Below are positions 111 to 27,014 of a stretch of DNA of 36,515 bases, piece by piece. Position 1 is the first letter of the stretch, and the number at the start of each line of letters is the position of its first letter. Origin of the DNA: Candidatus Moraniibacteriota bacterium (GTDB lineage: Bacteria; Patescibacteriota; Minisyncoccia; Moranbacterales; UBA1568); the NCBI GenBank assembly GCA_018499985.2, contig JAHBAT020000019.1, forward strand, positions 1-36,515, read 5' to 3'. Under the pieces are notes generated by a model. That model worked only from the letters and a program-made list of their open reading frames with translations. It was not told where the DNA came from and made no database searches. Both the position numbers and the translations under genes were made by a program.

Positions 111-147
111 ATAAAGAAAAGTAACCAAGATAATACGGTATCAATCA

Positions 148-177
148 TTTATCCCGTTAGAGTATAATAGGGATAAA
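148..177 (+). promoter_or_regulatory. Probable promoter of the sugar transferase gene with an operator-like inverted repeat
   Basis: A consensus -10 hexamer TATAAT lies at 163-168 with no good -35 at the usual distance. It is bracketed by a perfect 8-bp inverted repeat, TTTATCCC (148-155) and GGGATAAA (170-177), with 14 bp between. The left arm is also part of a 17-bp motif (147-163, minus strand) that recurs at 26998-27014. The site lies between the end of rnpB and the sugar transferase, about 75 bases before its ATG. Transcription factor binding is inference. Confidence 0.5.
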
Positions 178-253
178 GGTTCAGGGTTACGGTATATTTA
201 GAGACTCATATACATTCTAGAGCATAGATAATAATTAGTTGTACTCTAACGGG

Positions 254-1678
254 ATGAAGCGATCAGAAGTTTATTTTAGTACAGTTCAGGTTCCTCTTGA
301 TTTTCTCATGATTCTTTTAGCGGCTACCTCCGCTTATTTTTTGCGTGATTTACCAATTTTTGAAGGGTATGTTTCCAAGGTATTCAATCTTAATTTTGTT
401 GACTATATTTGGTTTGTAGCATATTTAGCGCCGTTTTGTTTGTTGATTTTTGCACTCGAAGGATTGTATACGATGCGGGTCACTCGTCGTTTTTGGCCAG
501 AGTTTTATCGTGTTGGTAAGGCAACTGGTTTGGCCCTCATCATTTTGATTATTGTTATCTTTTTGAATCGAGAGTGGTTTTCTTCACGTTTTGTTATTTT
601 GTTTGGTTGGGGATTTAGTGTGCTGTACATCGCAGGTGCTCGCCTGATCGTGCAACGTGTTCAGAAGTGGCTTTTGACTACCAGAGAAATCGGTGTGCAC
701 CGAGTGCTTCTTATTGGGAATAACGAGAAGATTAATCGTATGAAGCGTCTCTTTGCTCGTAATAAGAGTCTTGGCTACAAAGTGGTAGATCAGATAGAAG
801 TAGCCAGTGTGAGCCTTATCAAAGATATTCGTTTGGAGAAGGGTGTGGATGAAATTATCGTAGGCGACACGAGTTTGACGGATGAAGAGCTAGAAAAACT
901 TTTTGACTATTGTCAGATCAACAACATTACTTATAAACACCTTCCTACAAGTATGCAGACTTCCCGGGTCAGCATGAGCGTGTTTTATGGTGAGCCCATG
1001 ATTGAGTATCAGCACACACCACTTGATGGTTGGGGAAAGGTTTTGAAGCGTATTTTTGATATTGTGGCCGGTAGCATTCTGACCTTGATTGCAAGTCCTA
1101 TCATGCTTATTGTAGCTATCCTTATCAAGATAGAAGATGGTAGCGGACCAATTATCTACAAGAATAAGCGCATTGGAGAAAATGGCGAAAAATTCTTTGT
1201 CTATAAGTTTCGTTATATGCAGTGGAAATACTGCATCACCAAAGAAAACCCAGATATGGAAGAGGCGATTCTCTTTGAGAAGAAGCTTATCGAGGAACGC
1301 AATGTCCGCAAAGGTGGCGTGCTCTATAAAATCAAAGACGATCCTCGTCGTATGAAAATAGGTGCTTTTATTGAGCGTTTCTCGCTTGATGAGTTGCCAC
1401 AGTTTTTTAATGTGCTTCGTGGTGATATGAGTCTTGTGGGTCCACGTCCACATCAAGAACGTGAAGTGGAGCAGTATGCTGAGTACCACCGTCGCCTCCT
1501 TACGATTAAGCCAGGAGTGACTGGTATGGCACAGGTTTCGGGACGCTCAGATTTGGCCTTTGAAGATGAGTATCGCTTAGATGTCTTTTATATTGAAAAT
1601 TGGAATCTTCTTTTGGATATCATCATTTGTCTCAAGACCGCTTCGGCCTTAGTGAAGCGTCGTAAAAACATGAAATAG
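254..1678 (+). CDS. Polyprenyl-phosphate sugar-1-phosphate transferase (initiating sugar transferase)
   Basis: This 474-residue membrane enzyme should transfer a sugar-1-phosphate from a UDP-sugar to undecaprenyl phosphate, the first step of glycan assembly at the inner face of the membrane. Several hydrophobic segments fill about residues 12-140. A Rossmann-like domain follows (about 148-235), then the catalytic PF02397 domain with KRIFD (265-269), the Asp-Glu dyad in SLDELPQ (377-383) and VGPRP (395-399). FRYM replaces the usual FRSM, and the catalytic domain carries an insertion around residues 322-370, so it is longer than in typical WbaP/EpsL proteins. The ATG at 254 is preferred over a TTG at 239 because family members begin with a similar Lys/Arg-Ser segment. 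No SD is present, and the ATG overlaps the repeated ACTCTAACGGGAT motif. The sugar substrate cannot be read from sequence. Confidence 0.92.
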   Translation: MKRSEVYFSTVQVPLDFLMILLAATSAYFLRDLPIFEGYVSKVFNLNFVDYIWFVAYLAPFCLLIFALEGLYTMRVTRRFWPEFYRVGKATGLALIILIIVIFLNREWFSSRFVILFGWGFSVLYIAGARLIVQRVQKWLLTTREIGVHRVLLIGNNEKINRMKRLFARNKSLGYKVVDQIEVASVSLIKDIRLEKGVDEIIVGDTSLTDEELEKLFDYCQINNITYKHLPTSMQTSRVSMSVFYGEPMIEYQHTPLDGWGKVLKRIFDIVAGSILTLIASPIMLIVAILIKIEDGSGPIIYKNKRIGENGEKFFVYKFRYMQWKYCITKENPDMEEAILFEKKLIEERNVRKGGVLYKIKDDPRRMKIGAFIERFSLDELPQFFNVLRGDMSLVGPRPHQEREVEQYAEYHRRLLTIKPGVTGMAQVSGRSDLAFEDEYRLDVFYIENWNLLLDIIICLKTASALVKRRKNMK

Positions 1679-1683
1679 CTTTT

Positions 1684-1715
1684 ACTCCCACGAACCCTCG
1701 TGGGAGTATTTGTTT
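1684..1715 (+). terminator. Rho-independent terminator after the sugar transferase gene
   Basis: A 10-bp perfect stem (1684-1693 with 1698-1707) with a 4-base ACCC loop starts five bases after the stop codon and is followed by a T-rich run (TATTTGTTT). This ends the sugar transferase transcript before the next gene. Confidence 0.88.
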
Positions 1716-1725
1716 GTGGTATACT
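1716..1725 (+). promoter_or_regulatory. Extended -10 promoter of the YvlD-like gene
   Basis: TATACT at 1720-1725 is preceded by TG in the extended -10 position (TGTGGTATACT). It lies directly after the upstream terminator and 23 bases before the next ATG, so the expected leader is short. No -35 box is obvious because the terminator stem occupies that place. Confidence 0.5.
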
Positions 1726-1748
1726 AAGAATACTTAATACATATACAT

Positions 1749-2102
1749 ATGTCTGTACTCGTACGTTGGATTTTGTCGGCACTTGCCTTTATTGCAGTAG
1801 CCAATCTGGTACCAGGTATTACGGTAGCCAGCTTTTGGACCGCTCTTGTTTTGGCGCTTCTTTGGGGACTTATTGGTGTCACTATCAAGCCAATTGTCCT
1901 TGTCCTAACTCTTCCAATTAATGTACTGACTCTCGGGATATTTACCTTTATCATCAATGGCTTTTTTCTCTCCCTTCTTGGAGGTATTGTAAAAGGCTTT
2001 GAAGTCAAGGGTTTCTGGGTAGCGGTTTTGGGCGCAATTGTTCTTTCAGTTATCAATATGCTTATCAATTGGGGCTTGGAAAGAACAAAGGCTTCAAGCT
2101 AA
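1749..2102 (+). CDS. YvlD-like four-TM membrane protein (PF04020, 'phage holin family IV')
   Basis: This 117-residue protein has four hydrophobic segments (roughly residues 5-22, 28-50, 57-80 and 87-108). It shows the family pattern of an N-terminal W/L-rich helix, a VPGI turn (residues 21-24), a PI-x-VLTLPIN segment (about 48-57) and a closing INW-containing helix. PF04020 proteins, such as B. subtilis YvlD, are small inner-membrane proteins. The holin label is historical, and a role in envelope stress has been suggested for relatives. The gene stands alone between two terminators with its own extended -10, so it is probably not part of the glycan operons. The ATG has no SD. The family call is solid; the function is not known. 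Confidence 0.82.
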   Translation: MSVLVRWILSALAFIAVANLVPGITVASFWTALVLALLWGLIGVTIKPIVLVLTLPINVLTLGIFTFIINGFFLSLLGGIVKGFEVKGFWVAVLGAIVLSVINMLINWGLERTKASS

Positions 2103-2115
2103 GAAACAAAATTGC

Positions 2116-2145
2116 AAAAAGCCCTCTAAGAGGGCTTTTTTGTTT
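2116..2145 (+). terminator. Rho-independent terminator after the YvlD-like gene
   Basis: An 11-bp stem made of an A-tract plus GCCCTC (2116-2126) pairs with GAGGGC plus a T-tract (2130-2140), with a 3-base loop. The flanking A and T runs make it work in either direction, and the gene's stop lies 13 bases upstream. Confidence 0.9.
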
Positions 2146-2172
2146 GACAAATACACGCTTGAGGAGTATTCA
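2144..2172 (+). promoter_or_regulatory. Sigma70-type promoter of the YdcF/DUF218-like gene
   Basis: A consensus -35 TTGACA (2144-2149) and TATTCA (2167-2172) are separated by exactly 17 bp. The -35 overlaps the tail of the preceding terminator, so this gene is transcribed independently. It is among the best promoter matches in the window. Confidence 0.65.
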
Positions 2173-2195
2173 GAAGGTAGTTCCAAAAGTCGACA

Positions 2196-2206
2196 AAGGA
2201 GAGGAA
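2196..2206 (+). promoter_or_regulatory. Strong Shine-Dalgarno sequence
   Basis: AAGGAGAGGAA ends one base before the ATG at 2208; its AAGGAG core sits at about standard spacing and its purine run fixes the start. Nearly every other gene in the window lacks an SD, which makes this site unusual here. Confidence 0.75.
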
Positions 2207-2207
2207 G

Positions 2208-2792
2208 ATGTCGGTAAGGGCCATTTTTTTGAATGCCTTTGTTGGCAAGACTGCCAATAACAGGGCGCGTATCATACAGGAGCGACTATCCGCTGCTCTG
2301 GGGCGGTTTCAAAACCGTTGCCTGTGTGACGAAGAAGACCAGATCAAGAAAATCGTGGTGGTCGGTGAAGATGGGTGCTTAGGCGGCTTCGCCACTGATA
2401 TCATGATGCGTCTGGGTTATGCTGGCGTACCGGAGGATGTCATCGTAGTCGCTGGCAACGCCAAGAATACCTTCGAAGCCATCGAGCTTTTTGTGACAAA
2501 AGTCACGGAGCTTTATCCTGGCCAACATGTCAGGGTACACGTGGCGACACACGAATGGCTTCTTCCGAGGACGCTTTTCTACATGGGTCACTGGAAGCCA
2601 AACAAATCGCTACCGCCTCCGGCTCTGAAGATGAAAAGCTGTTGCCCTTGTGTGGGCTATCAGCCGAATCTGCGGGAGCGTCTGCGAGAGTTCTTTCGCA
2701 GAGGTGATGCCGGTTACATCTTGGCCCAGCAGCGTGATCCGCTTTGGTGGCATAAGCAGCAGCAACTACTTGATCCCATCAGCACTTTCTGA
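2208..2792 (+). CDS. YdcF/DUF218-like protein, tentative
   Basis: This 194-residue protein is not confidently assigned. Its middle resembles the DUF218 (YdcF/SanA/ElyC) fold: a hydrophobic strand IVVVGEDG (49-56), then GVPEDVIV (73-80), NAKNTFEA (84-91, like the family's S-x-NT-x-EN), and HVATHEWLLPRTLFYMG (111-127, like the family's VTS-x-YH-x-xRA). The N-terminal part begins with another predicted strand (AIFLNAF, 5-11), and the C-terminal tail has a CCPC cluster (145-148) and many Arg/Gln residues. There is no signal peptide or TM helix, unlike SanA/ElyC, so it is probably cytoplasmic. Codon choice is visibly more GC-rich than in neighbours, and it has its own promoter, SD and terminator. 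It may be a transferred or highly expressed single gene unrelated to glycan synthesis. Confidence 0.6.
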   Translation: MSVRAIFLNAFVGKTANNRARIIQERLSAALGRFQNRCLCDEEDQIKKIVVVGEDGCLGGFATDIMMRLGYAGVPEDVIVVAGNAKNTFEAIELFVTKVTELYPGQHVRVHVATHEWLLPRTLFYMGHWKPNKSLPPPALKMKSCCPCVGYQPNLRERLREFFRRGDAGYILAQQRDPLWWHKQQQLLDPISTF

Positions 2793-2825
2793 AGGAGAAA
2801 GCTACAACTAACTTTCGCTTTGAAG

Positions 2826-2870
2826 GGACCGCAAGAGATATTATCTTCTGCGGTCTTCTTCTTTTTCAAA
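2826..2870 (+). terminator. Rho-independent terminator overlapping the end of the convergent gene
   Basis: GACCGCA (2827-2833) pairs with TGCGGTC (2849-2855), and inner pairs reach a 3-base loop at 2840-2842. A pyrimidine/T-rich tail (TTCTTCTTTTTC) follows. The right arm and tail also encode the last residues (acidic and RRR) of the minus-strand protein that stops at 2841, so terminator and coding sequence share the same bases. Confidence 0.75.
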
Positions 2871-3551
2871 AATAATCCAGAGACCGAGAGAAAACCCTCC
2901 CAGAATAGTAAAGCCAAAGAGAAGAAGGAGAGGAAGTCCTTTGATATATGTTGGTTTGTACTGGGACATGCGCTCTATGAGTCGCCAGGTATCAGCTGCA
3001 AATGAATCGGTACTATAGGCAGGACGAAGCTGGAGGGTTTCGTTTTCGTAAACTTTATTTTTAGATACAGCGGTGTAGCTCTTGCCAGCAAGCTCGTTTG
3101 TATTGATATACGGAGCATCATTGGTTTTTCGGTCATAGGGAGAAGTATAAGTAATATACGCGCAGTATTTCTTCTCCATCGACTCTGGTATGCGCTCAAA
3201 GGTGAAGCGGGTGTAGTTTAATGGTTTTGGCTTGAGAGGTGTCCAGCTGTCAGTGGCAAGTGTATGGGCACAAGATTCATCACGCAACTCAAACACAAGC
3301 GCCTCTCCTGGCCAGAGGTCTAGACCCCCGATATGCACCTTGACCTCCGAAAGACCATTTTCTTGAGCGACAAATACCTGAGAAAGAGGCTTGTCTATAG
3401 AAAGACGGGCACGATCTTTTTTGCCAAGAAAATTATAGTCAGAATCAGGAAAATGCAGCTTTGAGGTGAAGCCCAGTATGATAGAGCCAAAGCCAATAAT
3501 AAAGGCTCCTAGGAGGATTTTTTGAGCTGTAGCGGCATTCTGAAGGGGCAT
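2841..3551 (-). CDS. Two-TM membrane protein with an extracytoplasmic domain, unknown family
   Basis: I do not recognise this 236-residue protein. A hydrophobic helix near the N-terminus (about residues 11-29), a roughly 170-residue polar region rich in aromatic and beta-type segments, and a second helix near the C-terminus (about 206-230) before a charged tail (EKEEDRRR) suggest both ends are inside and the middle domain is outside. The domain contains isolated Cys residues that could pair. It starts 2 bases after the stop of the upstream DUF2142-like gene, so the two are surely co-transcribed, and it may be a partner of that predicted glycosyltransferase. An upstream in-frame ATG at 3602 would overlap that gene by 49 bases, so the ATG at 3551 is preferred. 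No SD. Confidence 0.7.
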   Translation of the reverse strand: MPLQNAATAQKILLGAFIIGFGSIILGFTSKLHFPDSDYNFLGKKDRARLSIDKPLSQVFVAQENGLSEVKVHIGGLDLWPGEALVFELRDESCAHTLATDSWTPLKPKPLNYTRFTFERIPESMEKKYCAYITYTSPYDRKTNDAPYINTNELAGKSYTAVSKNKVYENETLQLRPAYSTDSFAADTWRLIERMSQYKPTYIKGLPLLLLFGFTILGGFSLGLWIIFEKEEDRRR

Positions 3552-3553
3552 AT

Positions 3554-5005
3554 TTAGAGGTAGTAACGAGGAATTATGACATTGAAGATAGAGTAGAGGC
3601 AAAGAAGGAGCATACCAAGAGAGAGTGCCTTAAGAAGAGTCGTAAATTGCGCTTTATTCTTGGTAAAAAGAAAGCCTAAGCCAGTGACGATAATAAGAAA
3701 GTGGGGGACAATATTTGGCAAAAAATAGCGTCCAGGAGTGCCAATAAGAATTTCTTTGGTGATATCAAATGTTCGCCAGTCATAAAAGCGAATAGCAAAC
3801 TGAAGAGAAATAATCATACCAAGTGCTAAGCACAGGAACTTTTTAGAAGGGAGATAAGAAAAGGATTTTTTGGCAAAGAGAAAGAAAATAAATCCAAGAT
3901 AACCAAGGTATTCTAGGCACCAAATAAAAATAAGGACGGTATCAGATATCCGCGTATCGAGCCAGCCAAAGTTTCCCCAGTAAGACGTATGTGAATGAAA
4001 AAAATCATCTATAGAGAACGTCTTGTCAGTATAAGCAAGAAGTGAATTTGAAATAGAGGAAAACTGAGAGTCTGAGCCAAGTCGTAAAATAGATGAGGTA
4101 TAGGTACTAGGAATACAAATAAAGAAAATTGCAGCACTAAGAGAGATACTTATTAGCAGCACCAAGAAAGTCTTTTTGTATGACCAATGAAAGTGATCCT
4201 TAAGTAACCAAAGATAGAGTATTCCAATAGTAGGGAGAAGACAGATGGCGGGTCCTTTGGAGTAAAGTCCAAGAATAAAAGAGGTACCAAGGAGAAGGTG
4301 GTATCGATATGTAGAAGGATTTTGTAATAGGAGTATGCCAGCAAGGAAAAATAGGGTGAACGAAAAAATAAGAGCAATATCTATATTGACTATGGTGCCG
4401 GTAGCAATTAGCATGGGCTCCAGACCAATAAATAATGCAAAAAGGGTTATTTGTAACGGAGAGGTAAAAATTTTTCGAGCAATGGAATATGTAATAAGAA
4501 TAACTCCAAGGTAAACAAAAAGAGAAATGAGACGAGCAAGAAAAAAACGTTCACTAAAATTTGATAAGGAAGTGTATTTTTCGACAAAGCTAGTGAGTGT
4601 ATAGTAGAAGGATTTTGTTCCGGAGGTATTATTTGGATAAGTCTCGATAAAGCGCTTATGAGAGCGCTGATCAAAAATAGCCTCATTTGGATGTGTAGCG
4701 CTTAGCGAAAAATTCTGAGTATTCTCCTCTTGCCATTTGAGTTCATCAAATTGGTTGAGTACTCCTCCAAAGACGACTTCCTCAGAGAGATTGAATTCTC
4801 GGATATCCTGACCGTTGTGTATTATTTTTCTTTCATATAAAGGCCAATTTTTATCCTGGGGCTCAGTCTTGTATTGGATAGTTCCATAGTGAATAACCTC
4901 ATCCGGGCCTTGGTAAAGAGGGAGGGTAAATACGAAAAAAATGCCCAAAAAAGCCAGAAAAGATGTAGCGAAAAGGAAAAAGTATTTTGATTGGAAGTTT
5001 AGCAT
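3554..5005 (-). CDS. DUF2142-like polytopic membrane protein, predicted GT-C glycosyltransferase
   Basis: This 483-residue protein has about 10-12 hydrophobic segments. After the first helix it carries GPDE (33-36), in the place where DUF2142 (PF09913) proteins have P-PDE-x-x-H, and here H39 follows. Later come NFGWLD and GxxGRYFLP motifs, also typical of that family. A large extracytoplasmic loop lies between helices 1 and 2, as in GT-C enzymes that use a polyprenyl-phosphate sugar. The expected role is transfer of a sugar or assembly of glycan on the outer face; donor and acceptor are unknown. The start is ATG 5005, with TATACT hexamers immediately upstream (5007-5017 on the plus strand) that imply a leaderless or very short leader; a TTG at 5023 is the alternative. 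It is first in a two-gene minus operon. Confidence 0.78.
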   Translation of the reverse strand: MLNFQSKYFFLFATSFLAFLGIFFVFTLPLYQGPDEVIHYGTIQYKTEPQDKNWPLYERKIIHNGQDIREFNLSEEVVFGGVLNQFDELKWQEENTQNFSLSATHPNEAIFDQRSHKRFIETYPNNTSGTKSFYYTLTSFVEKYTSLSNFSERFFLARLISLFVYLGVILITYSIARKIFTSPLQITLFALFIGLEPMLIATGTIVNIDIALIFSFTLFFLAGILLLQNPSTYRYHLLLGTSFILGLYSKGPAICLLPTIGILYLWLLKDHFHWSYKKTFLVLLISISLSAAIFFICIPSTYTSSILRLGSDSQFSSISNSLLAYTDKTFSIDDFFHSHTSYWGNFGWLDTRISDTVLIFIWCLEYLGYLGFIFFLFAKKSFSYLPSKKFLCLALGMIISLQFAIRFYDWRTFDITKEILIGTPGRYFLPNIVPHFLIIVTGLGFLFTKNKAQFTTLLKALSLGMLLLCLYSIFNVIIPRYYL

Positions 5006-5040
5006 GAGTATAGTATAATACAATGGCTTAATAAAGCCAT
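4991..5040. promoter_or_regulatory. Divergent promoter region with palindrome ATGGCTT-AATA-AAGCCAT
   Basis: For the plus-strand epimerase operon, TTGGAA (4991-4996) and TATAAT (5014-5019) have a 17-bp spacer. The -35 lies inside the start of the minus gene. On the minus strand two TATACT hexamers (5012-5017 and 5007-5012) lie just before ATG 5005, giving a nearly leaderless transcript. A perfect 7-bp palindrome with a 4-base gap (5023-5040) sits over the expected plus-strand start site at about 5026 and could be an operator or a 5' hairpin. Confidence 0.55.
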
Positions 5041-5058
5041 ATAGTTTAGATTTTTTGT

Positions 5059-5943
5059 ATGTATAAATACAATCATATACTTTTAGGAGGAACTGGTTTT
5101 ATTGGAGCTGAGTTGGCACTAGCTCTTCAAGAGAGAGATGGTGGAGTGCTTGCTGTCGGTCGTCAGACTGAAGGTGTTTTGCCCCGAGGGGTTTTATTTA
5201 AAGAAGTAGAGTTAACAAATGAAGGAGGGGTAGAAAGCGTTATTTACCCTACAAAAAATATCTCCATCCTTTTGGGACAAAATTATCAAAATTTTGATAA
5301 AGCAAAAGAATTAGAGTTGCTTCATAGAATCGTAACCGTTCTCAATTCGCTGGACGTCCCTACACGGGTTTTCTATTTTTCTTCAGCACTAGTGTATGGT
5401 GATACATTTGAGCCTGCTTCTGAAGATGGAATTCCTCAGCCAGTCGATGTATATAGTCAATTTAAGTATGAGGCGGAGCAGCTGCTCCAGGAGGCATTGG
5501 CTAAAAAACATCAGCTTCGTATCTTACGATTAGCAAATGTCTACGGGTCTCCTAAGAATAAAGGTTTTATTGGACTATTGATGAAATCTGTTTCCTCTAA
5601 AATGCCTTTTACTCTTAATGGAGGAGGATTGCAAGAGCGTGATTATATGTATATTGATGATATAGTGGGAGCTATTTTGGCTATTTCTGAAAACCAAAAT
5701 GAATCCCAATGTGAGGTTATCAATATTGCTACTGGTGTTTCGAGTACCCTTAATCAGGTAGTGGCTACCATGCAAGAGCTCCTTGTTTCGCCAATTGAGT
5801 ATTTGATAAATGACATGGTACCTCAAGAAGTCAAAGTAAGCAGGATAGACAATAAAAAATTACGAGATACCTATCAGTACGCAGTGCAGTTTCCTCTTAA
5901 AGAAGGCCTGCAAAGAACATGGGAGAAATATCAGTTACATTAG
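5059..5943 (+). CDS. NAD-dependent sugar epimerase/dehydratase (extended SDR)
   Basis: This 294-residue soluble enzyme should modify a nucleotide sugar, for example as a 4-epimerase, reductase or dehydratase. It has the N-terminal Rossmann glycine motif GGTGFIG (10-16), an SSA segment (108-110) supplying the catalytic Ser, and the YSQFK form of the YxxxK motif (132-136). GGLQERDYMYIDDIV matches the substrate-domain signature of the extended SDR family. It is somewhat shorter than GalE (about 330-340), with an abbreviated region after the cofactor fold. It is the first gene of a plus-strand operon, five bases before a UDP-GlcNAc 4,6-dehydratase-like gene. It could therefore act on the 4-keto-6-deoxy product of that enzyme, much as reductases in fucosamine or QuiNAc pathways do. 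The exact substrate is inference. Confidence 0.83.
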   Translation: MYKYNHILLGGTGFIGAELALALQERDGGVLAVGRQTEGVLPRGVLFKEVELTNEGGVESVIYPTKNISILLGQNYQNFDKAKELELLHRIVTVLNSLDVPTRVFYFSSALVYGDTFEPASEDGIPQPVDVYSQFKYEAEQLLQEALAKKHQLRILRLANVYGSPKNKGFIGLLMKSVSSKMPFTLNGGGLQERDYMYIDDIVGAILAISENQNESQCEVINIATGVSSTLNQVVATMQELLVSPIEYLINDMVPQEVKVSRIDNKKLRDTYQYAVQFPLKEGLQRTWEKYQLH

Positions 5944-5948
5944 GCATT

Positions 5949-7352
5949 ATGTATACATCAAAAAATATTCTTATTATCGGAGCTGGCAAGGCCGGACAAC
6001 TACTGCGAAAAGATATTTTAGCAAATTACCCCAATTATCAGGTGATTGGTTTTGTAGATGATAAAATCAAAGAAACAAAGGGTTTGCTGAAAGGAAAGAT
6101 AGCCGACATAGAAAAACTTGTCCGCCTTTACGCAGTCGATGAAATGGTGATAGCTATCCCCTCTGCTGACGGTCCTTTGGTACGAAGGATTTTGTTACAG
6201 AATCGAGATAATACTATCCCTATACGAATAGTACCAAGGGATCAAAGGGTTATAGGTAAAAGTGAAGTACTTTATGCCGAAGTCAAGAAGCTTGATTCCG
6301 AGGATTTTTTAGGGCGGCCATTTGTCCGTAAAAATGTTGATCGCCTAAAAAAGTTTTATCAAGATAAAGTGGTATTTGTAACCGGTGGAGCTGGATCAAT
6401 TGGTTCTGAAATCGTGCGGCAACTCATTGATCTTGATGTGAAAAAGGTGGTTGTGTACGATAATTCGGAATACCTAGTGTTTCTTTTAGAGCAGAGCCTA
6501 AAAGAACGAGGTGTTCGTGATCGCTGTGAATTAATAGTAGGAAATATCCTCTATAATAATAAGCTAAAGAATGTTTTGGCTAAAATAAAACCAGATATCG
6601 TATTTCATGCAGCTGCCTATAAGCACGTACATTTGATGCATGATAATGTAGATCAGGCTATCTATAATAACGTAATTGGTACCAAACGCTTAATAGACGC
6701 TGCCTTAGAGTCAGGGGTAAAAATTTTTACGTTTATTTCAACAGATAAAGTAGTAAATCCATCAAGTGTTATGGGAGCTACGAAAAAGCTTTGTGAGTTT
6801 TATATTCAATCACTAAAATCAAAGAAAACGCATTTTAATATTGTGCGGTTTGGTAATGTAATTAATTCAAATGGTTCAGCGCTTCCTTTGTTTGAGAGGC
6901 AGATAGAATTACATCGTTATGTAACAGTCACTCATGAAAAAATGGAGCGATTCTTTATGTCTATCAGAGAAGCCGCCCAGCTTGTCATTGAAAGTACGGC
7001 CACTGGAAAATCAAATGCTATTCATGTTTTGGACATGGGTGAATTAATTCGAATTTATGATGTGGCGTTATCCCTTATTCGCTCGAAGGACTTACGACCA
7101 AACGTTGATGTTGAGGTGAGGGTAACAGGGTTACGAAAAGGTGAAAAAATGATTGAAGAGCTCTATACAGAAGATGAAAAACGAGAGCTGAAGAAAACAA
7201 AAGATAGTCGTATGTTTCTTCTGAAGAATACAGATATATGCAAAGAAAATATCGTAGAGGTTTTTGAAAATTTACGTCAGATGGCCATTTCAGGAGATGA
7301 TGAAAAATCATTTAAATATCTCAAAAAACTTTTTCCTTCATTAAAGAATTAA
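5949..7352 (+). CDS. CapD/FlaA1-type nucleotide-sugar 4,6-dehydratase lacking the TM domain
   Basis: This 467-residue protein is probably a UDP-GlcNAc 4,6-dehydratase or close relative that makes a 4-keto-6-deoxy sugar. Residues 1-125 form the Rossmann-like domain (ILIIGAGKAG, 7-16) that in long WbpM/PglF/CapD proteins follows four TM helices; here the helices are absent. The catalytic domain has TGGAGSIG (145-152), STDK (264-267) and MGATKK (275-280), where Met replaces the usual Tyr of YxxxK, a hallmark of this subfamily. Long-form members have about 600 residues, short forms about 330, so this intermediate architecture is notable. ATG 5949 lies five bases after the upstream stop; an earlier in-frame ATG at 5919 overlaps that gene and adds no homologous residues. 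No SD. Confidence 0.88.
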   Translation: MYTSKNILIIGAGKAGQLLRKDILANYPNYQVIGFVDDKIKETKGLLKGKIADIEKLVRLYAVDEMVIAIPSADGPLVRRILLQNRDNTIPIRIVPRDQRVIGKSEVLYAEVKKLDSEDFLGRPFVRKNVDRLKKFYQDKVVFVTGGAGSIGSEIVRQLIDLDVKKVVVYDNSEYLVFLLEQSLKERGVRDRCELIVGNILYNNKLKNVLAKIKPDIVFHAAAYKHVHLMHDNVDQAIYNNVIGTKRLIDAALESGVKIFTFISTDKVVNPSSVMGATKKLCEFYIQSLKSKKTHFNIVRFGNVINSNGSALPLFERQIELHRYVTVTHEKMERFFMSIREAAQLVIESTATGKSNAIHVLDMGELIRIYDVALSLIRSKDLRPNVDVEVRVTGLRKGEKMIEELYTEDEKRELKKTKDSRMFLLKNTDICKENIVEVFENLRQMAISGDDEKSFKYLKKLFPSLKN

Positions 7353-7361
7353 TGTTTCGTT

Positions 7362-9802: not shown

Positions 9803-9816
9803 AATTCGAATGCTGA

Positions 9817-17069: not shown

Positions 17070-17081
17070 AGATAGGGATAG

Positions 17082-18986: not shown

Positions 18987-19020
18987 AAAAGGAAAAATCG
19001 CCCAATAAAGGCTTAATTAC

Positions 19021-19050
19021 TTGTCTATCATACCGTAAATAGGCTATACT
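19021..19050 (+). promoter_or_regulatory. Promoter of the methyltransferase gene at 19075
   Basis: TTGTCT (19021-19026) and TATACT (19045-19050) are separated by 18 bp, with the ATG 24 bases after the -10. It is interlaced with the divergent asnB promoter, so the two cannot be bound by polymerase at once. Confidence 0.6.
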
Positions 19051-19055
19051 GGCAA
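19027..19055 (-). promoter_or_regulatory. Promoter of the asnB-led minus operon
   Basis: On the minus strand TTGCCA (plus-strand 19050-19055) and TATGAT (19027-19032) are separated by exactly 17 bp. The start site would fall near 19020, about 34 bases before the asnB ATG. It overlaps the plus-strand promoter almost completely. Confidence 0.65.
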
Positions 19056-19074
19056 AAATTACTGTAATACAACT

Positions 19075-20022: not shown

Positions 20023-21174
20023 TTAGGAAAGAATTTTTGTAAAAAGAGCCTGATATTTTTCTATAGCCTTGTTCCAGATAAAAAGAGAAGAGACCCTTTT
20101 TTCTGCCTCTAAGCCATACTCTTGTATGAGTTCAGGGTTAAGAGAAAGGGAGAGAAGATTTTTTTTGAGAGCTTCTATGTCTCTTGCTTCTATCAGGATG
20201 CCGTCTTTGTGGCCAGAAATAATTTCATTGGTACCGCCGACATCAGTAGCAATAATAGCTTTTTTGAGAAGAGCTGCCTCTATTACGGAGGTTGGTATAC
20301 CTTCGGTATAGCTAGGATTTACAAAAATATCAAACACTTTGAGGTAGCCCATAGCAACAGGAAGGGGTTGTGCTCCCAAAAAAAGCACGCGTGATTCAAT
20401 GGTAAGTTTCCGAGAGAGTTCCTCGAGACGAGCTTTTTCTGGTCCATCTCCAATTATGACAAGAAGAGCTTTTGGTATTTCTGCCTCAGCAAAAGCTTGA
20501 ATAAGATCATGCACTCCTTTGCCTTCAATAAGTCTACCAATGTAGCCAATAAGAGTTGTGTTTGGGTGAACTTCTTTGAGCTCTTTGATTGGTGAAGCAG
20601 AAAGAATAAGATCTTTTTCAACACCACGGTACACTACTTCGCAGTCAGTGCGGCCAGAGAGTTTGATGACAAATTTTCTGGATGCTTCTGAATTAGCAAT
20701 GACGAGTTTGGCATGTTTGAGTATGAGTCGTCCGAGCGTGTAGTCGTATATTTTACCGAGAAGATTTTTGGAGGCATTTTCAAATTGAGCGAAATCAGAT
20801 CCATGCTCTATATGAACCCAATGGATATGTTTTTTCCAAGCAAAATAGCCTGCCATAAGAGAAGGAAAGAAAAAGCGAGTGCGAGAAATTACAAGAGAGT
20901 AATTTCCTAGAGAAAGATTTTTCCAGAGCTTCCAGAAGTCTTTTTTCCAAAAAAGAGGAATTGGATAATTATGAATAATTTCTACCGCTGGGTAACGAAT
21001 GACCCGAACACGCGTATGCATGACTTCAGAGGAGGGTGCAGTGAGAGGAAGGCGAGGTGTAAACACGGTAATAGAGGCACCTTTTTCGGAAAAGTGCTTA
21101 TTGAATTCATCGCTGTGACTTTCGAGTCCACCACGATGAGGTGGATAGTAAGGTGAAAAAATAAGAAGCTTCAT
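20023..21174 (-). CDS. Glycosyltransferase family 4 (GT4)
   Basis: This 383-residue GT-B enzyme starts KLLIFSPYYPPHRGGLESH, the classical opening of GT4 mannosyl/hexosyltransferases with a GG acceptor loop. It has EHGSDF, IANSEASRKFV and YRGVEKDL before the hinge, then YIGRLIEGKGVHDLI, IGDGPEKARLEEL and EGIPTSVIEAALLKKAII at the donor site. It is the last gene of the five-gene minus operon, 3 bases after the GT-C-like gene. No SD. Specificity is unknown. Confidence 0.9.
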   Translation of the reverse strand: MKLLIFSPYYPPHRGGLESHSDEFNKHFSEKGASITVFTPRLPLTAPSSEVMHTRVRVIRYPAVEIIHNYPIPLFWKKDFWKLWKNLSLGNYSLVISRTRFFFPSLMAGYFAWKKHIHWVHIEHGSDFAQFENASKNLLGKIYDYTLGRLILKHAKLVIANSEASRKFVIKLSGRTDCEVVYRGVEKDLILSASPIKELKEVHPNTTLIGYIGRLIEGKGVHDLIQAFAEAEIPKALLVIIGDGPEKARLEELSRKLTIESRVLFLGAQPLPVAMGYLKVFDIFVNPSYTEGIPTSVIEAALLKKAIIATDVGGTNEIISGHKDGILIEARDIEALKKNLLSLSLNPELIQEYGLEAEKRVSSLFIWNKAIEKYQALFTKILS

Positions 21175-21177
21175 ATG

Positions 21178-23313
21178 TTAAGGAATGTACTGCCAAATGA
21201 TAATCTCTTCGTTGGGATACGTGTACACTCTTTGGAAGTGTTCAGGGACTTGATCGTAAATAAAAGCTGGCTCCTTAGTTATTTGAGAATTTTGACTGTA
21301 CGGTCTTCTCGCATAAGGGTTACGAGCATCTGGTTTCGCATAATAGACGTATATATTATGAAGAGAATGCTCAGGATTTTTTTGGGAGGAGAGAGGGACT
21401 TCTTTTTGAAAGTCTTGAGAAATTTTTTCTAGACGAGCAGCCTCCCTTAAAAGGTCATCTTTTTTTGCTGTCAGTGTAAAGCTGTTGATATTTTGAAGAG
21501 CAAGGGTGACTTGTTGTTGGAAATTTTTGTAGTAGAAATCTAGTTCTGGACTATTAGCTGAGTAATCGTCTAAGAGCTTAAAAAAGATTCTTTGATCAAA
21601 ATAGAAAAGAGGGTCATTGGTAGAGATAGTTTTTATTTGAGCGTGTGTGCGGAGTAGATTTTCGTTGCCACTGGTGAATACGATGGCGTTAGAGGGTAAT
21701 GAGGTTTTTATCCAATCGGCGGAATAAAGTTGAGGAGGTGTAATGAGAAACTGCTTTAGCTGATTGATATACAAAGCCCCAATGATATTGATGAAAAGAA
21801 GACAGATTACAAGATAGGGTGTCCATAGCCAGCGTCGGGAAAGATAATTGAGAGCTGGTATAAATAGTGCAAAAGCAAAAAGCACAGTAATGCCCCATGC
21901 GCGTTCTGGCAAGAGTGCAATATTAAAAAAACGAGGAAGTAACTCAGAGATACTAAAAAATACAAAGGCACTTAAGCTGAGGACAAAGATTTCGGGAGAA
22001 GTACTGAGGGTACGATAAAAAGGATATTTTTTCCAAAAAAAATAAAAGAAGTAACCAAAGAGAATGAAAAAAAGTGGCCCAGCATAGAAAGCGTAGTAAC
22101 GAAGAACTCCCATAGGCGAATTCCAGCCAACGGACATGCCGTCAATATTGATATACGTTGCTGGGTATGCAAAATTGAAAGTGCTTTTTTGAAAGAGAAC
22201 AAAAAGATTTTGAATCCAAAGAAAGATAAATTGGAATACTGATGAAAAAAGAGAAAGAAGATGGAGAATAATGAAGACGCTTAAAAGAGCAATAAGAAAA
22301 GGATTTTTTTGATAGAGCGATTTTAGTGAATTTTTGTAAAAAAGAAGAGTAGAAAAAATCCAAAGTAATAAGATAATACCAGCAGCTTCATGATAAAATG
22401 CTGTACCTGCAAGGATAAAGCCACCCCAAAAAAAGAAAAAACGATTCTTTGAAAAATAGCTTATAAGCAGTGAAAGACAGAAGAGTATGAGGCCAAAATT
22501 GAGGATGGCCTGAGGAATGGGAGTGTGACTGTAGAGTACAAATGATCCCGTCACAAAGGGGAAAAGATAGACAATAACTTTTTCTTTTTTTGAAGTAAAG
22601 AAAGAGGCGATAAGGGTAAGTGGTAAGACAAGTAGGAGAGAAAAGAAAGGAAGGACGTACTTGAAATAAGCGTAGCTGTCTATTTGGGCGCTTTTGATAA
22701 AGATATAAGCCAGGGAAGAAAAAAGTGGTCGATAGAGATGTAGCGCAGTGACGATACCATTGGTAAAATCTTTTTGATACAGGGAAAGCCAGTAATAGGG
22801 ATCAAGATCAGGAAGAGCATAAAAAGCCCGGACAATTATGGTTGTGAAGGTGGCAAAAAAGAGAGTTGTGAAGAGAAGGTGAACTTGATTTTTTTTGAGT
22901 GAATGCCAGAGGGATTCCTCTGGAAACTCTAGAAATTGAGGGTTGAGTAGCCAGGCGAAGATAAATGTAATAAAGGAAAAAAAGACGGGTGTAAGTGGAT
23001 GTGTAATGAGTAGGAAGCTAAAAAGAAGGGTAATGAAAAGAGGTGGAATAATAAAGCTTAAGGTAGTTGCTAGGAAAAGTTTTTCTAGCCAGTTAAATTT
23101 TTTTTGAAAAAGTTTTTCTGTAATACTGGCTAGATTGATGCCAGCAAGCGGTAAGCAGATACTAAGAACAAGAAGAGAAAAGCTGATTTTCAGGAGAGGC
23201 TCATCACTAGAGGGTGCAACAGCGCTTATAGCAAACAACAAAAAAAGACCAAAATTAAGGAGAAAAAGGTTTCTGGTAAAATCTTTAGAAGAAAGATGAG
23301 GGAGCAACCGCAT
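21178..23313 (-). CDS. Large polytopic membrane protein, GT-C-like
   Basis: This 711-residue protein has roughly 12-14 hydrophobic segments over the first 530 residues and then a soluble C-terminal region of about 180 residues that should face outside. DLDPYYW (169-175) in the first large outer loop resembles the acidic loop of GT-C glycosyltransferases and STT3-like proteins. HEAAG and LLPRFFNIALLPERAW further on resemble membrane-embedded polymerase or mannosyltransferase segments, but I recognise no named family. Its operon contains a GT2 of the polyprenyl-phosphate-sugar synthase type, which could make its donor. A Wzy-like polymerase is an alternative. It lies 5 bases after the DUF2304 gene. 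Confidence 0.7.
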   Translation of the reverse strand: MRLLPHLSSKDFTRNLFLLNFGLFLLFAISAVAPSSDEPLLKISFSLLVLSICLPLAGINLASITEKLFQKKFNWLEKLFLATTLSFIIPPLFITLLFSFLLITHPLTPVFFSFITFIFAWLLNPQFLEFPEESLWHSLKKNQVHLLFTTLFFATFTTIIVRAFYALPDLDPYYWLSLYQKDFTNGIVTALHLYRPLFSSLAYIFIKSAQIDSYAYFKYVLPFFSLLLVLPLTLIASFFTSKKEKVIVYLFPFVTGSFVLYSHTPIPQAILNFGLILFCLSLLISYFSKNRFFFFWGGFILAGTAFYHEAAGIILLLWIFSTLLFYKNSLKSLYQKNPFLIALLSVFIILHLLSLFSSVFQFIFLWIQNLFVLFQKSTFNFAYPATYINIDGMSVGWNSPMGVLRYYAFYAGPLFFILFGYFFYFFWKKYPFYRTLSTSPEIFVLSLSAFVFFSISELLPRFFNIALLPERAWGITVLFAFALFIPALNYLSRRWLWTPYLVICLLFINIIGALYINQLKQFLITPPQLYSADWIKTSLPSNAIVFTSGNENLLRTHAQIKTISTNDPLFYFDQRIFFKLLDDYSANSPELDFYYKNFQQQVTLALQNINSFTLTAKKDDLLREAARLEKISQDFQKEVPLSSQKNPEHSLHNIYVYYAKPDARNPYARRPYSQNSQITKEPAFIYDQVPEHFQRVYTYPNEEIIIWQYIP

Positions 23314-23318
23314 GGTAT

Positions 23319-23660
23319 TTATTTTTCAAGATCCTGAAGGCTTTCTTGGCGTGTCAGGGTAGTGATTTGTTGTTCAAGTTTTTCAATGGCTGAAAGGAGC
23401 TTAAAGAGCATAAGAAAGACCAGGAGAAAACCAGCAAGGATAACAGCGTTGATGTTACCTTCAATACCGATAAGTTTGGCTACTGTATTGCTCACGTGTG
23501 GAAAGGTGACCACGGTAGCCATGCCTCCCCAGACAATGATGCGGGTAAGGAGCTTGAGAAATGTCTGATTTCCCTTGCCTCCAAAATAGTTCTTCAGTCC
23601 TTGAAAAATCATAATGGCCGCAAAAGCAACAATAATAATTTGGTAGAGTGCAAAGTGCAT
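23319..23660 (-). CDS. DUF2304 family membrane protein
   Basis: This 113-residue protein has three hydrophobic segments (about 1-22, 35-55 and 60-85) and a C-terminal coiled-coil-like tail (LLSAIEKLEQQITTL). This fits PF10066/DUF2304, which is regularly encoded beside GT2 enzymes of the dolichol-phosphate-mannose synthase type, as here. A partner or membrane anchor for the GT2 at 23678 is the usual guess. ATG 23660 is chosen because relatives begin with the first helix; an ATG at 23696 would overlap the GT2 gene by 19 bases. TATAAT lies ten bases before ATG 23660. Confidence 0.82.
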   Translation of the reverse strand: MHFALYQIIIVAFAAIMIFQGLKNYFGGKGNQTFLKLLTRIIVWGGMATVVTFPHVSNTVAKLIGIEGNINAVILAGFLLVFLMLFKLLSAIEKLEQQITTLTRQESLQDLEK

Positions 23661-23669
23661 AGTGTTCGT

Positions 23670-23675
23670 ATTATA
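23670..23675 (-). promoter_or_regulatory. Possible internal -10 box before the DUF2304 gene
   Basis: A perfect TATAAT on the minus strand lies ten bases before the ATG at 23660, in the 17-base gap after the GT2 gene. A start about seven bases later would leave a leader of only two or three bases. The -35 region is poor, so it may be chance. Confidence 0.3.
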
Positions 23676-23677
23676 AG

Positions 23678-24349
23678 TTATGAAATCATATGCCAAATAA
23701 TTTTGTAGAGGGTTTTGAGTCCATTGACAAAGCCTTGTTTTTGGATTTTCCCCATACTGTATTCAGTATAGCGCACTTCGATAGGGACTTCGGAGTAGCG
23801 GAGTTTATGAAGATAAATTTCTCGAATGACCTCACTATCGTACTCATAGCGGTCTGTTTTGGTATTGATTATTTCTACTGCATGACGTGAGTAGGCACGA
23901 AAGCCAGACTGACTATCTGAAACCCAAAGACCGTAGATGTACCAAGTAACAGCGTTGCCGATATGATTAGCAAGGATTTTATACCAAGGCATCCCCTTGG
24001 GGTTTTTGAGTCGAGTCCCAAGAGCTACGTCGCACTTGCCATTGAGGATAGGCTGGATAAGTCGCGCTATATCCTCTGGGTTATGCTGACCATCACTATC
24101 GAGAGTTACGACTAGCTCGCAGCCAAGTTTTTTGGAGGCTTCGATACCGGTTTTCGTTGCGGCACCTTTGCCGCGATTGATTTTGTGGCGAAGTGCGATG
24201 ATGCCCGGTAGAGACCGAGCTACGGCATAGGTATCATCGGTACTCCCATCGTCGACGAGGATAATTTTTTGGTAGCCAGCATCCTGGATCTCTTTGATGA
24301 CATCTTTGATGATTTTGGATTCATTGTAGGCAGGAAGGACTATCCACAT
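23678..24349 (-). CDS. GT2 of the polyprenyl-phosphate hexose synthase type (DPM1-like)
   Basis: This 223-residue GT-A enzyme has VLPAYNE (4-10), LVDDGSTDDT (31-40) and the metal-binding DSDGQHNPED (84-93), then SQSGFRAYSR, a typical DPM1/DPG-synthase sequence. It lacks C-terminal TM helices, so it may rely on the adjacent DUF2304 protein for the membrane. It should load a hexose from GDP- or UDP-sugar onto undecaprenyl phosphate for use outside by GT-C enzymes such as that encoded at 21178. It begins 3 bases after the epimerase gene. Confidence 0.9.
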   Translation of the reverse strand: MWIVLPAYNESKIIKDVIKEIQDAGYQKIILVDDGSTDDTYAVARSLPGIIALRHKINRGKGAATKTGIEASKKLGCELVVTLDSDGQHNPEDIARLIQPILNGKCDVALGTRLKNPKGMPWYKILANHIGNAVTWYIYGLWVSDSQSGFRAYSRHAVEIINTKTDRYEYDSEVIREIYLHKLRYSEVPIEVRYTEYSMGKIQKQGFVNGLKTLYKIIWHMIS

Positions 24350-24352
24350 ATG

Positions 24353-25273
24353 TTATTTCTTAAACCATTCAAAAGTTTGCTTGAGGCCGTCTCTGAGTGA
24401 TACTGTTGGTTGCCAGGTAAGTTCGTCTTGGGCGCGGGCGCTATCAAGAGAGCTCATTTTTTGTTCGCCAGGAATAGAAGGGGCGTGAATTTCTTGAAAA
24501 GAATTATCAAAGAAATCATTGAGGAGAGAAAAGATCTCATTAACAGTTGTTTCTTTGCCGGTGCCTATATTGTAGATACCAGAAGCAGACTCAGTCTCGA
24601 GGGCGGCAATGTTGGCTCGGACGACATCGCCCACGAATATATAATCTCGGCTTTGCATGCCATCGCCATTGATGGTGGGCTGTTCTTCCCCAAGCATCTT
24701 ATTGAGAAAAATAGCGACTACACCAGCTTCCCCATGAGGGTTCTGGCGTGGACCGTAGACATTGCCATAGCGAAGCGAAATGGTTTTCAGAGGAGTGGCT
24801 TCTCTATAAAAAGCCAGGTACTTGTCGATGGTAAGCTTAGCAATACCGTAGGGAGAGAGAGGATTTTCATTGTGTGTCTCAGGAGTTGGTCGAATACTGG
24901 TATCTCCATACATGACCCCACCAGTAGAAGAAAAAATAATTTTTTGAACTCCTTTTTTGGAGGCCATATTTATTAAGTTTAGAGAGGCGAGTATATTTGT
25001 ATGGGCATCAAAGAGAGGGTCTTCTGTAGATTTGCGTACATTAATTTGGGCAGCTAAGTGAAAAACGGCGTCAAAAGTGTAATCGGTAAAAAGTTTATGA
25101 AGAACTTCCTCGTGAGTGATATCTCCCTCTATAAACGTAGCTTGGGGATTGATATTGGTGGTCTTGCCGCTACTTAAGTTATCGTAGACAAATACAGAGT
25201 GTCCACGTTCAATAAGGGCATCGACTAGATGCGACCCGATAAAGCCTGCTCCGCCAGTGACAAGGATATTCAT
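24353..25273 (-). CDS. NAD-dependent UDP-sugar epimerase (GalE-like)
   Basis: This 306-residue extended SDR has TGGAGFIGSH (6-15), VFHLAAQINVRKS, SSTGGVMYGD and the catalytic YGIAK (142-146), with RYGNVYGPRQNP and GDGMQSRDYIFVGDVV in the substrate half. This pattern is that of GalE/WbpP-type UDP-hexose 4-epimerases. It probably interconverts UDP-glucose/galactose or the GlcNAc/GalNAc pair; the substrate-size residue cannot be judged reliably. It heads the five-gene minus operon and is divergent from the GT2 gene at 25388. Confidence 0.88.
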   Translation of the reverse strand: MNILVTGGAGFIGSHLVDALIERGHSVFVYDNLSSGKTTNINPQATFIEGDITHEEVLHKLFTDYTFDAVFHLAAQINVRKSTEDPLFDAHTNILASLNLINMASKKGVQKIIFSSTGGVMYGDTSIRPTPETHNENPLSPYGIAKLTIDKYLAFYREATPLKTISLRYGNVYGPRQNPHGEAGVVAIFLNKMLGEEQPTINGDGMQSRDYIFVGDVVRANIAALETESASGIYNIGTGKETTVNEIFSLLNDFFDNSFQEIHAPSIPGEQKMSSLDSARAQDELTWQPTVSLRDGLKQTFEWFKK

Positions 25274-25294
25274 AAAGTAATCTTAAATATAGCC

Positions 25295-25303
25295 ATTTTA
25301 ACA
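25295..25303 (-). promoter_or_regulatory. Extended -10 of the epimerase-led minus operon
   Basis: TGTTAAAAT on the minus strand is an extended -10, about 21 bases before the ATG at 25273. No strong -35 is visible. It is separated from the divergent plus-strand promoter by about 45 bases. Confidence 0.4.
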
Positions 25304-25347
25304 GGATTTGATGCCAAAGAAAAGCCTTGTAGTGAGAGGTAGATATT

Positions 25348-25376
25348 TGCCTCAAAGGGTGATTTTTTGTACAATT
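25348..25376 (+). promoter_or_regulatory. Sigma70-type promoter of the plus operon beginning at 25388
   Basis: TTGCCT (25348-25353) and TACAAT (25371-25376) are separated by exactly 17 bp. The leader to the ATG at 25388 would be only about five bases, consistent with the lack of an SD there. Confidence 0.65.
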
Positions 25377-25387
25377 GAAAAACTATT

Positions 25388-26332
25388 ATGGAAAATCAAA
25401 CAAACAAGTATCTCTCGGTAGTAGTCCCTTTGTATAACGAAGAGGGCAACGTAGTAGAGCTACACCGTCGTATTCATGAGGCGGTAGAAAAAATCGGTAA
25501 ACCCTTCGAAATCATCTTTATTGATGATGGCTCTAAAGATAAGACGGTTGGACTGGCTCGTACCTTACATCCAGTCAAGCTTATCGAGTTTCGTAAAAAC
25601 TTTGGTCAGACAGCCGCTTTTGATGCTGGTATTAAGGCTGCTTCGGGAGAAATTATCATTACGCTTGATGGAGACCTCCAAAACGATCCGGCCGATATCC
25701 CACTTTTGCTCGAAAAAATGAATGAAGGGTACGACGTAGTCTCTGGCTGGCGTCATAAACGTAATGACCCGTGGAGCAAGAAAATCCCTTCACGTATCGC
25801 CAACCTTCTTCGAGGCATCCTGATCCAAGATCGTATCCATGATTCTGGTTGTAGTCTGAAGGCATACAAGAGAGAATGTTTTGAAAGCGTGGATCTTTTT
25901 GGTGAAATGCATCGTTTTATGCCAGCTCTTCTGATGCTAGATGGTTTCCGTGTTTCTGAAGTAAAGGTATCTCATCACCCACGTATTCATGGTGTTACGA
26001 AATACAATTGGAAGCGTGGCGTGAAAGGCTTTGTGGATATGATTGCTATCTGGTTTTGGCGCAAGTACTCTTATCGTCCGATTCATCTTTTTGGTGGCTC
26101 TGGTATCGTCCTTTCCTTTACGGGTACAGTCATTCTTCTTTGGATGATAGTCGAAAAGGTGCTTTTTCAGCAGGCTATTGGTGATCGTCTCTGGCCAATT
26201 GTGGGCATATTCTTTGTTCTTATGGGTGTGCAGCTTTTTGTAGCGGGACTCCTGGCCGATATGCTTGTACGTAACTATTATCAGGGTCGCCATCGTATGA
26301 ACTATTCTATTCGTGAAATTCGAGAGCAATAG
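25388..26332 (+). CDS. GT2 polyprenyl-phosphate sugar synthase with two C-terminal TM helices (ArnC/GtrB-like)
   Basis: This 314-residue enzyme has VVVPLYNEEG (11-20), IDDGSKDKT (45-53), EFRKNFGQTAA and the metal-binding DGDLQNDP (94-101), SGWRHKR, and SGCSLKAY. Two hydrophobic helices (about 235-258 and 272-295) close the protein. This is the architecture of ArnC/GtrB/DpmA enzymes, which load a sugar on undecaprenyl phosphate. It can supply the GT-C proteins in the window. It heads a four-gene plus operon and is followed after 2 bases by a methyltransferase gene. Confidence 0.92.
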   Translation: MENQTNKYLSVVVPLYNEEGNVVELHRRIHEAVEKIGKPFEIIFIDDGSKDKTVGLARTLHPVKLIEFRKNFGQTAAFDAGIKAASGEIIITLDGDLQNDPADIPLLLEKMNEGYDVVSGWRHKRNDPWSKKIPSRIANLLRGILIQDRIHDSGCSLKAYKRECFESVDLFGEMHRFMPALLMLDGFRVSEVKVSHHPRIHGVTKYNWKRGVKGFVDMIAIWFWRKYSYRPIHLFGGSGIVLSFTGTVILLWMIVEKVLFQQAIGDRLWPIVGIFFVLMGVQLFVAGLLADMLVRNYYQGRHRMNYSIREIREQ

Positions 26333-26334
26333 TC

Positions 26335-26997
26335 ATGGATATGAAACTGCACCGAGGGAATTTTGAAAGCAACCTTCTTTTTTTGAAGAAAAGTGGTTTA
26401 CTTGATACTCCAAAGCGTATCTTGGAGATTGGTTCTGGTCGCGGAGCTTTGGTCAGCAAGCTAAGAGAAATGGGTCATGACGCGGTAGGTACCGAAGTCA
26501 ATCCTGAATACATGGCTTACGCCAAGGATGAGTATGGAGTAGACTTGGTAACTATCAGTACCGCTACGACAGCACTTCCTTTTGAGGACAGGGAATTTGA
26601 TCTTGTGGTCAGCTTCGATGTCTTTGAGCATATCCCAAAAACCAAAGAACATGTAGCGGAGGTAAAGCGTGTCCTGAGAGAAAAGGGGAGTTACTTAGTG
26701 TGTACACCAAACAAGTGGACCAATATTCCCTTTGAGATACTTAAGGAAAAAAGCCTGACTAAATACAAAGAGTATCACTGCGCACTCCATAACTATTGGC
26801 AAATTCAAGAGCGTTTTCATAAGGCTGGATTTAGCACGCGTTTTGTAGAAGTACCTTTGGTGACACCGTACTTTGTGGAGAAGATACGTAAGTACCTGGG
26901 TGCGCCGGGAGTACTTTTGGTAAAAATTCTTCGTCCAGATAGCTGGCCACAATGGATAAAGACGAACTTTTATTTGGTAGCAACAAAGAAAGACTAA
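26335..26997 (+). CDS. SAM-dependent methyltransferase (Methyltransf_11 type)
   Basis: This 220-residue protein has motif I ILEIGSGRGAL (29-39), VGTEVNPEYM, LPFEDREFDLVVSFDVFEHI and VLREKGSYLVCTPNKW in order, with a short basic C-terminal part. It begins 2 bases after the GT2 gene; an ATG at 26341 is an equally possible start. The stop at 26997 is followed directly by the repeated 17-bp motif and the Ugd start. Probably methylates a glycan or precursor; substrate unknown. Confidence 0.87.
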   Translation: MDMKLHRGNFESNLLFLKKSGLLDTPKRILEIGSGRGALVSKLREMGHDAVGTEVNPEYMAYAKDEYGVDLVTISTATTALPFEDREFDLVVSFDVFEHIPKTKEHVAEVKRVLREKGSYLVCTPNKWTNIPFEILKEKSLTKYKEYHCALHNYWQIQERFHKAGFSTRFVEVPLVTPYFVEKIRKYLGAPGVLLVKILRPDSWPQWIKTNFYLVATKKD

Positions 26998-27014
26998 ACT
27001 CTAACGGGATAAAT
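26998..27014 (+). repeat. Repeated 17-bp motif ACTCTAACGGGATAAAT filling the gap before ugd
   Basis: This intergenic gap consists of exactly this motif, from the base after the methyltransferase stop to the base before the ATG. The same 17 bases occur on the minus strand at 147-163, and the first 13 occur at 243-255 overlapping the start of the sugar transferase gene. All three copies are at gene starts or promoters. The role is unknown. Confidence 0.7.

Follow-up and report, generated by a model that had tools for sequence, protein, structure and literature searches.

The DNA examined here, called the window throughout, is a stretch of 36,515 nucleotides of contig JAHBAT020000019.1 from a Candidatus Moraniibacteriota bacterium, in which a short motif recurs at gene starts. 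With a probability of roughly 0.8 this motif is the terminal inverted repeat (TIR) of a mobile element resembling a miniature inverted-repeat transposable element (MITE), and the window would contain one old full copy of the element and one lone right arm; that the elements are mobile we infer from sequence comparison. A first-pass annotation had offered three interpretations of the motif, an operator, a translation-start element replacing the Shine-Dalgarno (SD) sequence or a dispersed short repeat, and it is the dispersed repeat, in the more specific form of a mobile element's TIR, that stands, the other two being abandoned.

The motif itself is found as annotated. The exact 17-mer is present at 147-163 on the minus strand and at 26998-27014 on the plus strand and its 13-mer at 243-255 on the plus strand, where extension to the 17-mer introduces two mismatches. 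The gene contexts are also correct, as one copy touches a TATAAT box, one overlaps the ATG at 254-256 and one fills the gap before ugd. The occurrence is non-random, with three matches in the window at up to three mismatches versus 0.10 expected, and none of 100 shuffles gave three. In the whole genome of 891,858 bp the exact 13-mer is found four times and no match with one mismatch exists, nor does the reversed control have any match. The assumption of three independent copies is not tenable, because copies 1 and 2 pair over exactly 13 bp as a perfect stem, and two of the three copies are thus the inverted arms of a single 103-bp element. The fourth exact 13-mer, at C11:19505, lies upstream of a gene that is named thyA here on the basis of how its start reads rather than of a family search; a 108-bp element with TGAA on both sides occupies the thyA start, and the 13-mer is its left arm. 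The interiors of the window element and the thyA element are weakly similar (z 3.2). In a relaxed search of this genome most occurrences of the motif are paired in inverted orientation, CCCGTTAGA being followed by TCTAACGGG at a distance of tens of bases, and there are 10 or so such arm pairs in total. In the thyA leader (L001 1492-1620) the left target copy leaves an upstream ATG (ATGAATCCC..), from which a short frame runs ahead of the rebuilt start of thyA.

How widely is the motif distributed? The arms define a family of non-coding elements of about 100 bp with the structure CCCCGTTAGAANN..~75 nt..NNTTCTAACGGGG. Relatives in which TTCTAACGGGG is over-represented form a patchy set, with 27 matches in G029, 22 in G041, 16 in G009, 13 in G075, 11 in G093 and 10 in G038, versus zero matches of the reversed control in the same genomes. 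A scan of public genomes with the pattern CCCCGTTAGAA-N62-92-TTCTAACGGGG yielded at least 115 loci, mainly in Patescibacteria; judged by record names, other hosts among the matches listed are Deltaproteobacteria/Syntrophaceae, Planctomycetota, Nitrospirae, Omnitrophota, Elusimicrobia, Cloacimonadota and Clostridia, a spread across phyla that could be inflated by binning errors in metagenome-assembled genomes.

The copies are dispersed, measure about 85-115 bp in the searched set with a mode of 98-104 bp, into which the 103 bp of the window element fall, and carry no transposase gene. An identical 4-bp direct repeat flanks 70 of 132 distinct copies, compared to a mean of 10.5 and a maximum of 21 after shuffling. 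The match is observed at offset 0 only and is usually of the form TNNA, typical targets being TTTA, TTCA, TAAA, TCAA, TTGA and TGAA. Copies are also found nested within one another, and nesting together with direct repeats at offset 0 is a mark of a mobile element. The family hence displays the features of MITEs: TIRs, short direct target repeats, short dispersed copies without transposase and a coding relative with the same ends. Moreover, the arms pair beyond the 11 bases per arm that were fixed in the family search, positions 12 and 13 pairing in 92% and 83% of the copies versus 57% and 43% with shuffled arms; further in, pairing falls off. This excess survives shuffling of arms within genomes (64 of 70 versus 48.5, standard deviation 3.2, maximum 61 in 2000 shuffles), and within-genome subfamilies could account for part of it. 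Since the bases at positions 12-13 vary, what matters seems to be more than a fixed binding site: either a physical hairpin or the copying of one arm from its partner. Two copies in G041 (L275) with the right arm TTTCTAAGCGGGG share an identical one-base insertion.

How could such elements move? Longer members of 275-295 bp have the same or a sister TIR around a single open reading frame (ORF) of about 86 codons for a GIY-YIG nuclease. The first two coding members, of 278 bp in G029 and 291 bp in G093, contain one ORF each, matching Pfam GIY-YIG (PF01541) with E values of 3.3e-13 and 6.6e-17. The nuclease was searched for in 95 relatives and 40 other genomes, and the flanks were then tested for TIRs. 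This identified 25 nuclease copies whose ends are of type A (CCCCGTTAGA) or type B (CCCTGTTAAA), one of them in a Planctomycetota record (L363, where the left arm has one mismatch) and another in a Syntrophaceae record (L365). The C-terminus of the nuclease (..LTG) usually lies inside the right TIR; the L273 product, for example, ends with ..FLTG*, its last codons being formed by the right TIR and a TAA from the flank. The TIR variant of the window forms the left end of the nuclease-coding copies L369 and L371, which like the thyA copy have TGAA on both sides. The TIRs differ in other GIY-YIG clades, where the two flanks are in some cases equal (TATG for L348 and L387, TTGA for L379). In a protein alignment the sequences group by TIR type, a grouping judged by eye without a tree and with some type-B copies placed under A by the automatic labels, and the catalytic positions (Y-Y, YxG, R, E) are conserved. 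The agreement of TIR type with nuclease clade is the chief argument that the nuclease acts on its own ends, and sister clades with different TIRs point to the nuclease as the mobiliser. Small GIY-YIG genes with unrelated terminal repeats (L348, L387, L379, L323, L327, L350, L358) appear as further families of the same design.

In such a scheme the nuclease would recognise its own TIR and cut the element, the TNNA target or both, whereupon repair would complete the insertion. The copies of about 100 bp would be deletion derivatives that are moved in trans. Insertions at start codons would persist because they are nearly harmless, the start codon being rebuilt. The stop codon of the nuclease touches the start of the host gene (ATGA or TAAATG), which may couple translation, and in the mRNA the stem would pair the start region of the host gene and might affect its expression. 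Judging from the sequences, it is an even bet that these elements are DNA transposons of a new class, with one GIY-YIG nuclease of about 86 residues as their entire mobility machinery. This nuclease would recognise the 13-bp ends and insert at TNNA-like tetranucleotides, the surviving insertions being concentrated at start codons; it would have its own C-terminus written in the terminal repeat and would have seeded bacteria of many phyla with hairpin derivatives of about 100 bp that rebuild the starts of their host genes.

Several observations weigh against the explanation as a whole. In 13 of the 25 coding copies TTCA precedes the element and TAAA follows it, which is not a direct repeat and is not explained by a simple 4-bp duplication, and the flanks of the window copy are likewise unequal (TTTA and TGAA). 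Some GIY-YIG ORFs had no TIR in the flank test applied. GIY-YIG genes are few in the high-copy genomes G041 and G075, and none of those inspected was of type A. In addition, copies span phyla and one arm pair can enclose a tRNA, so other cargo occurs. Some of these points would fit a MITE that is moved by an unrelated transposase, the GIY-YIG gene being cargo that landed between the TIRs, which we consider doubtful but the most serious of the alternatives. It would agree with the scarcity of GIY-YIG genes in G041 and G075 and with the clean 4-bp repeats of the MITEs of about 100 bp, which are mostly missing from the coding copies. However, several nuclease clades each have their own TIR, with the nuclease filling the whole element, and no longer element with another transposase was found; a first-pass search for long elements with a different gene between the arms gave nothing convincing. 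Two Pfam families were tried as mobilisers, Y1_Tnp and DDE_Tnp_1, and rejected, as their gene counts do not track the element counts and no arms adjoin these genes. A viral vector was rejected too, the viral contigs having neither elements nor confirmed GIY-YIG relatives. Relatives of family f11 (G043, G055, G060, G072, G078) have several Y1-transposase-like proteins each and elements with a shorter arm spacing.

An alternative of a different kind is that the inverted repeat is a recurring functional RNA structure, a leader hairpin or processing stem, and not mobile. It is an unlikely one. In its favour, an element is present at the sugar transferase start in three of ten genus members (G000, which is the genome of the window, G009 and G007); it is absent from the other seven relatives. 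All three elements keep 13 pairs, one of them with a G-T pair and a compensated pair, and the exact 13-bp stem and co-varying end pairs are what an RNA structure would be expected to show. The three interiors have no significant similarity to each other, leaving one old insertion and repeated insertions both possible. In a few cases tRNAs lie between the arms, namely in L011 (G000 C15:5025-5139), L014 (G000 C2:8121-8278), L196 and L288; a processing stem around tRNAs was rejected, since aragorn with default settings detects one tRNA in 131 elements, so that a tRNA is not the usual content. Against a purely structural role speak the direct 4-bp target repeats, the nesting, the unrelated interiors, the neighbouring genes that vary between genomes and the nuclease of the coding members. 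Furthermore, no described Rfam family matched in the window, and among 14 related loci only tRNAs did. An RNA structure and a mobile element could both be true if some copies were adopted by the host.

Why are the elements found at gene starts? The positional preference claimed originally holds at the level of the family. Of the 25 nuclease copies, 13 have a host start, counted if at least 80 open codons follow, no more than 30 bp from their right end; for the left end the number is 1, and for random points the share is about 20%. Among 247 MITE ends a start lies within 20 bp in 43 (17% versus 10% in the control), both statistics resting on simple open-frame rules. In 20 of these 43 ends GTG is formed exactly at the junction from the last G of the TIR and the TG of TGAA. 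More generally, the junction GGG(A/G)|TGAA rebuilds ATG or GTG, and in the TCCC..GGGA variant the final A rebuilds ATG, as at the sugar transferase of the window and at thyA. Insertion into or beside starts such as ATGAA, with the junction restoring the codon, explains the preference better than a role in regulation or in place of the SD would. Survival after insertion may contribute to the pattern as well as target choice, which the data do not separate. A coding copy in G001 separates a TATAAT box from the ATG of a cupin-like gene, the same site being without element in G005 (90% identical protein), G011 and G008, with spacers too diverged for a base-exact empty site. It is possible that the hairpin in the mRNA affects expression of the downstream gene.

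Right arms that coincide with start codons, as in the window and at thyA, are also what an operator or an element in place of the SD would produce. Such a function is very improbable, given that copies 1 and 2 belong together as the two arms of a single element, that only four exact 13-mers exist in the genome and that most orthologs of the same genes are without the motif; no evidence for an operator was found. Equally improbable is an invertible promoter segment with site-specific inversion between the arms, as suggested by inverted arms about 80 bp apart beside genes with promoter-like sequence inside, since flanking direct repeats and nuclease-coding members fit insertion and not inversion, and the interiors differ in sequence and not just in orientation. 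Integron attC sites were dropped as well, their arms being opposite in orientation to those of the element.

The features of the window are collected in the table. Before ugd the arm is absent in the eight genus relatives compared, and the TAAA that follows it in the window is the most common right flank of nuclease-coding copies. No nuclease-coding element was found in the window's genome, which is 98.6% complete and has three GIY-YIG matches; the best match to the family nuclease has an E value of 1.1e-7, and L403 resembles the UPF0213 type. As there is no close relative of the nuclease, the copies in the window are most likely fossils and the nuclease appears to have been lost from this genome. 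Just 5' of the element, at about 83-113, lies the end of an RNase P RNA (GACAGAATCCGGCTTATAGATCTG). The contig begins within this gene, which is why RNase P RNA has no Rfam score in the window. The sugar transferase follows RNase P RNA elsewhere as well (Rfam match in L262 and conserved 3' end upstream in orthologs).

Table. Features of the candidate mobile element and of the lone arm in the window, with the adjoining genes
Feature	Position	Strand	Remarks
Probable MITE-like element, 103 bp, both arms and interior	152..254	+	Ends in sugar transferase start codon; 13-bp arm pairing
Left flanking tetranucleotide TTTA	148..151		Possible decayed target repeat; unequal to right flank; TNNA flanks typical of family
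Left terminal inverted repeat TCCCGTTAGAGTA (motif copy 1, minus strand)	152..164		Sequence, arm pairing
Element interior, 77 bp	165..241		No long ORF; holds TATAAT (162-170 region)
Right terminal inverted repeat TACTCTAACGGGA (motif copy 2)	242..254		Sequence, arm pairing
Right flanking tetranucleotide TGAA	255..258		Probable target site, from original ATGAA start
ATG start codon of sugar transferase	254..256	+	Last repeat A and target TG; orthologs align from here
Sugar transferase gene (Bac_transf, CoA_binding_3)	254..1678	+	
Lone right terminal repeat ACTCTAACGGGA (motif copy 3)	26998..27009	+	Directly 3' of methyltransferase stop codon
Flanking tetranucleotide TAAA	27010..27013		One base 5' of ugd start
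ugd, UDP-glucose 6-dehydrogenase family	27015..28322	+	

How do these elements compare with known systems? Correia elements, also called NEMIS (Neisseria miniature insertion sequences), and other prokaryotic MITEs are likewise short, non-coding, bounded by TIRs, dispersed and often located just upstream of genes, and the arms of Correia elements in mRNA are cut by RNase III (PMC10969869). In contrast to these, the element has a different TIR sequence, a TIR of 13 bp, a TNNA 4-bp repeat and a rebuilt start codon, and its coding partner is a GIY-YIG nuclease and not a known transposase. Free-standing GIY-YIG homing endonuclease genes are similar in that a small nuclease spreads its own gene, but what homing enzymes recognise is the uninterrupted allele rather than the mobile DNA of their own (PMC1564403), whereas the elements occupy many dispersed unrelated sites per genome and have TIRs and non-coding derivatives. 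Repetitive extragenic palindromes (REP) and their REPIN doublets, with the Y1 transposase RAYT, share the short dispersed palindromic pairs and a similar overall size; the elements, however, have no GTAG tag, have target repeats and show no arms near Y1 genes. GIY-YIG insertions in rRNA genes of the Candidate Phyla Radiation (CPR) were reported to be neither group I/II introns nor homing-like, with ORF-less insertions of less than 200 bp occurring too, and no inverted repeats were reported for them (PMC11270868). Hosts and GIY-YIG ORFs are alike, and it is possible that they are the same elements. In the open-access PMC literature that was searched the motif was not found in a relevant context, nor was a description of GIY-YIG elements with TIRs in prokaryotes.

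To our knowledge the GIY-YIG fold does not serve as a stand-alone DNA transposase, and we know of no autonomous transposon smaller than about 280 bp. If the nuclease is the mobiliser, the GIY-YIG fold would be added to the stand-alone transposases and a self-contained transposon of about 280 bp would set a new lower size. It could then account for many unexplained small GIY-YIG genes in groundwater bacteria, for the reported transfer of small GIY-YIG genes out of Patescibacteria (PMC12455944) and for CPR rRNA-gene insertions without homing behaviour (PMC11270868). The element illustrates how mobile DNA can insert at a start codon and yet spare the gene. Many groundwater bacteria have elements of about 100 bp on the start codons of genes, and rebuilt start codons would have to be recognised when such genomes are annotated.

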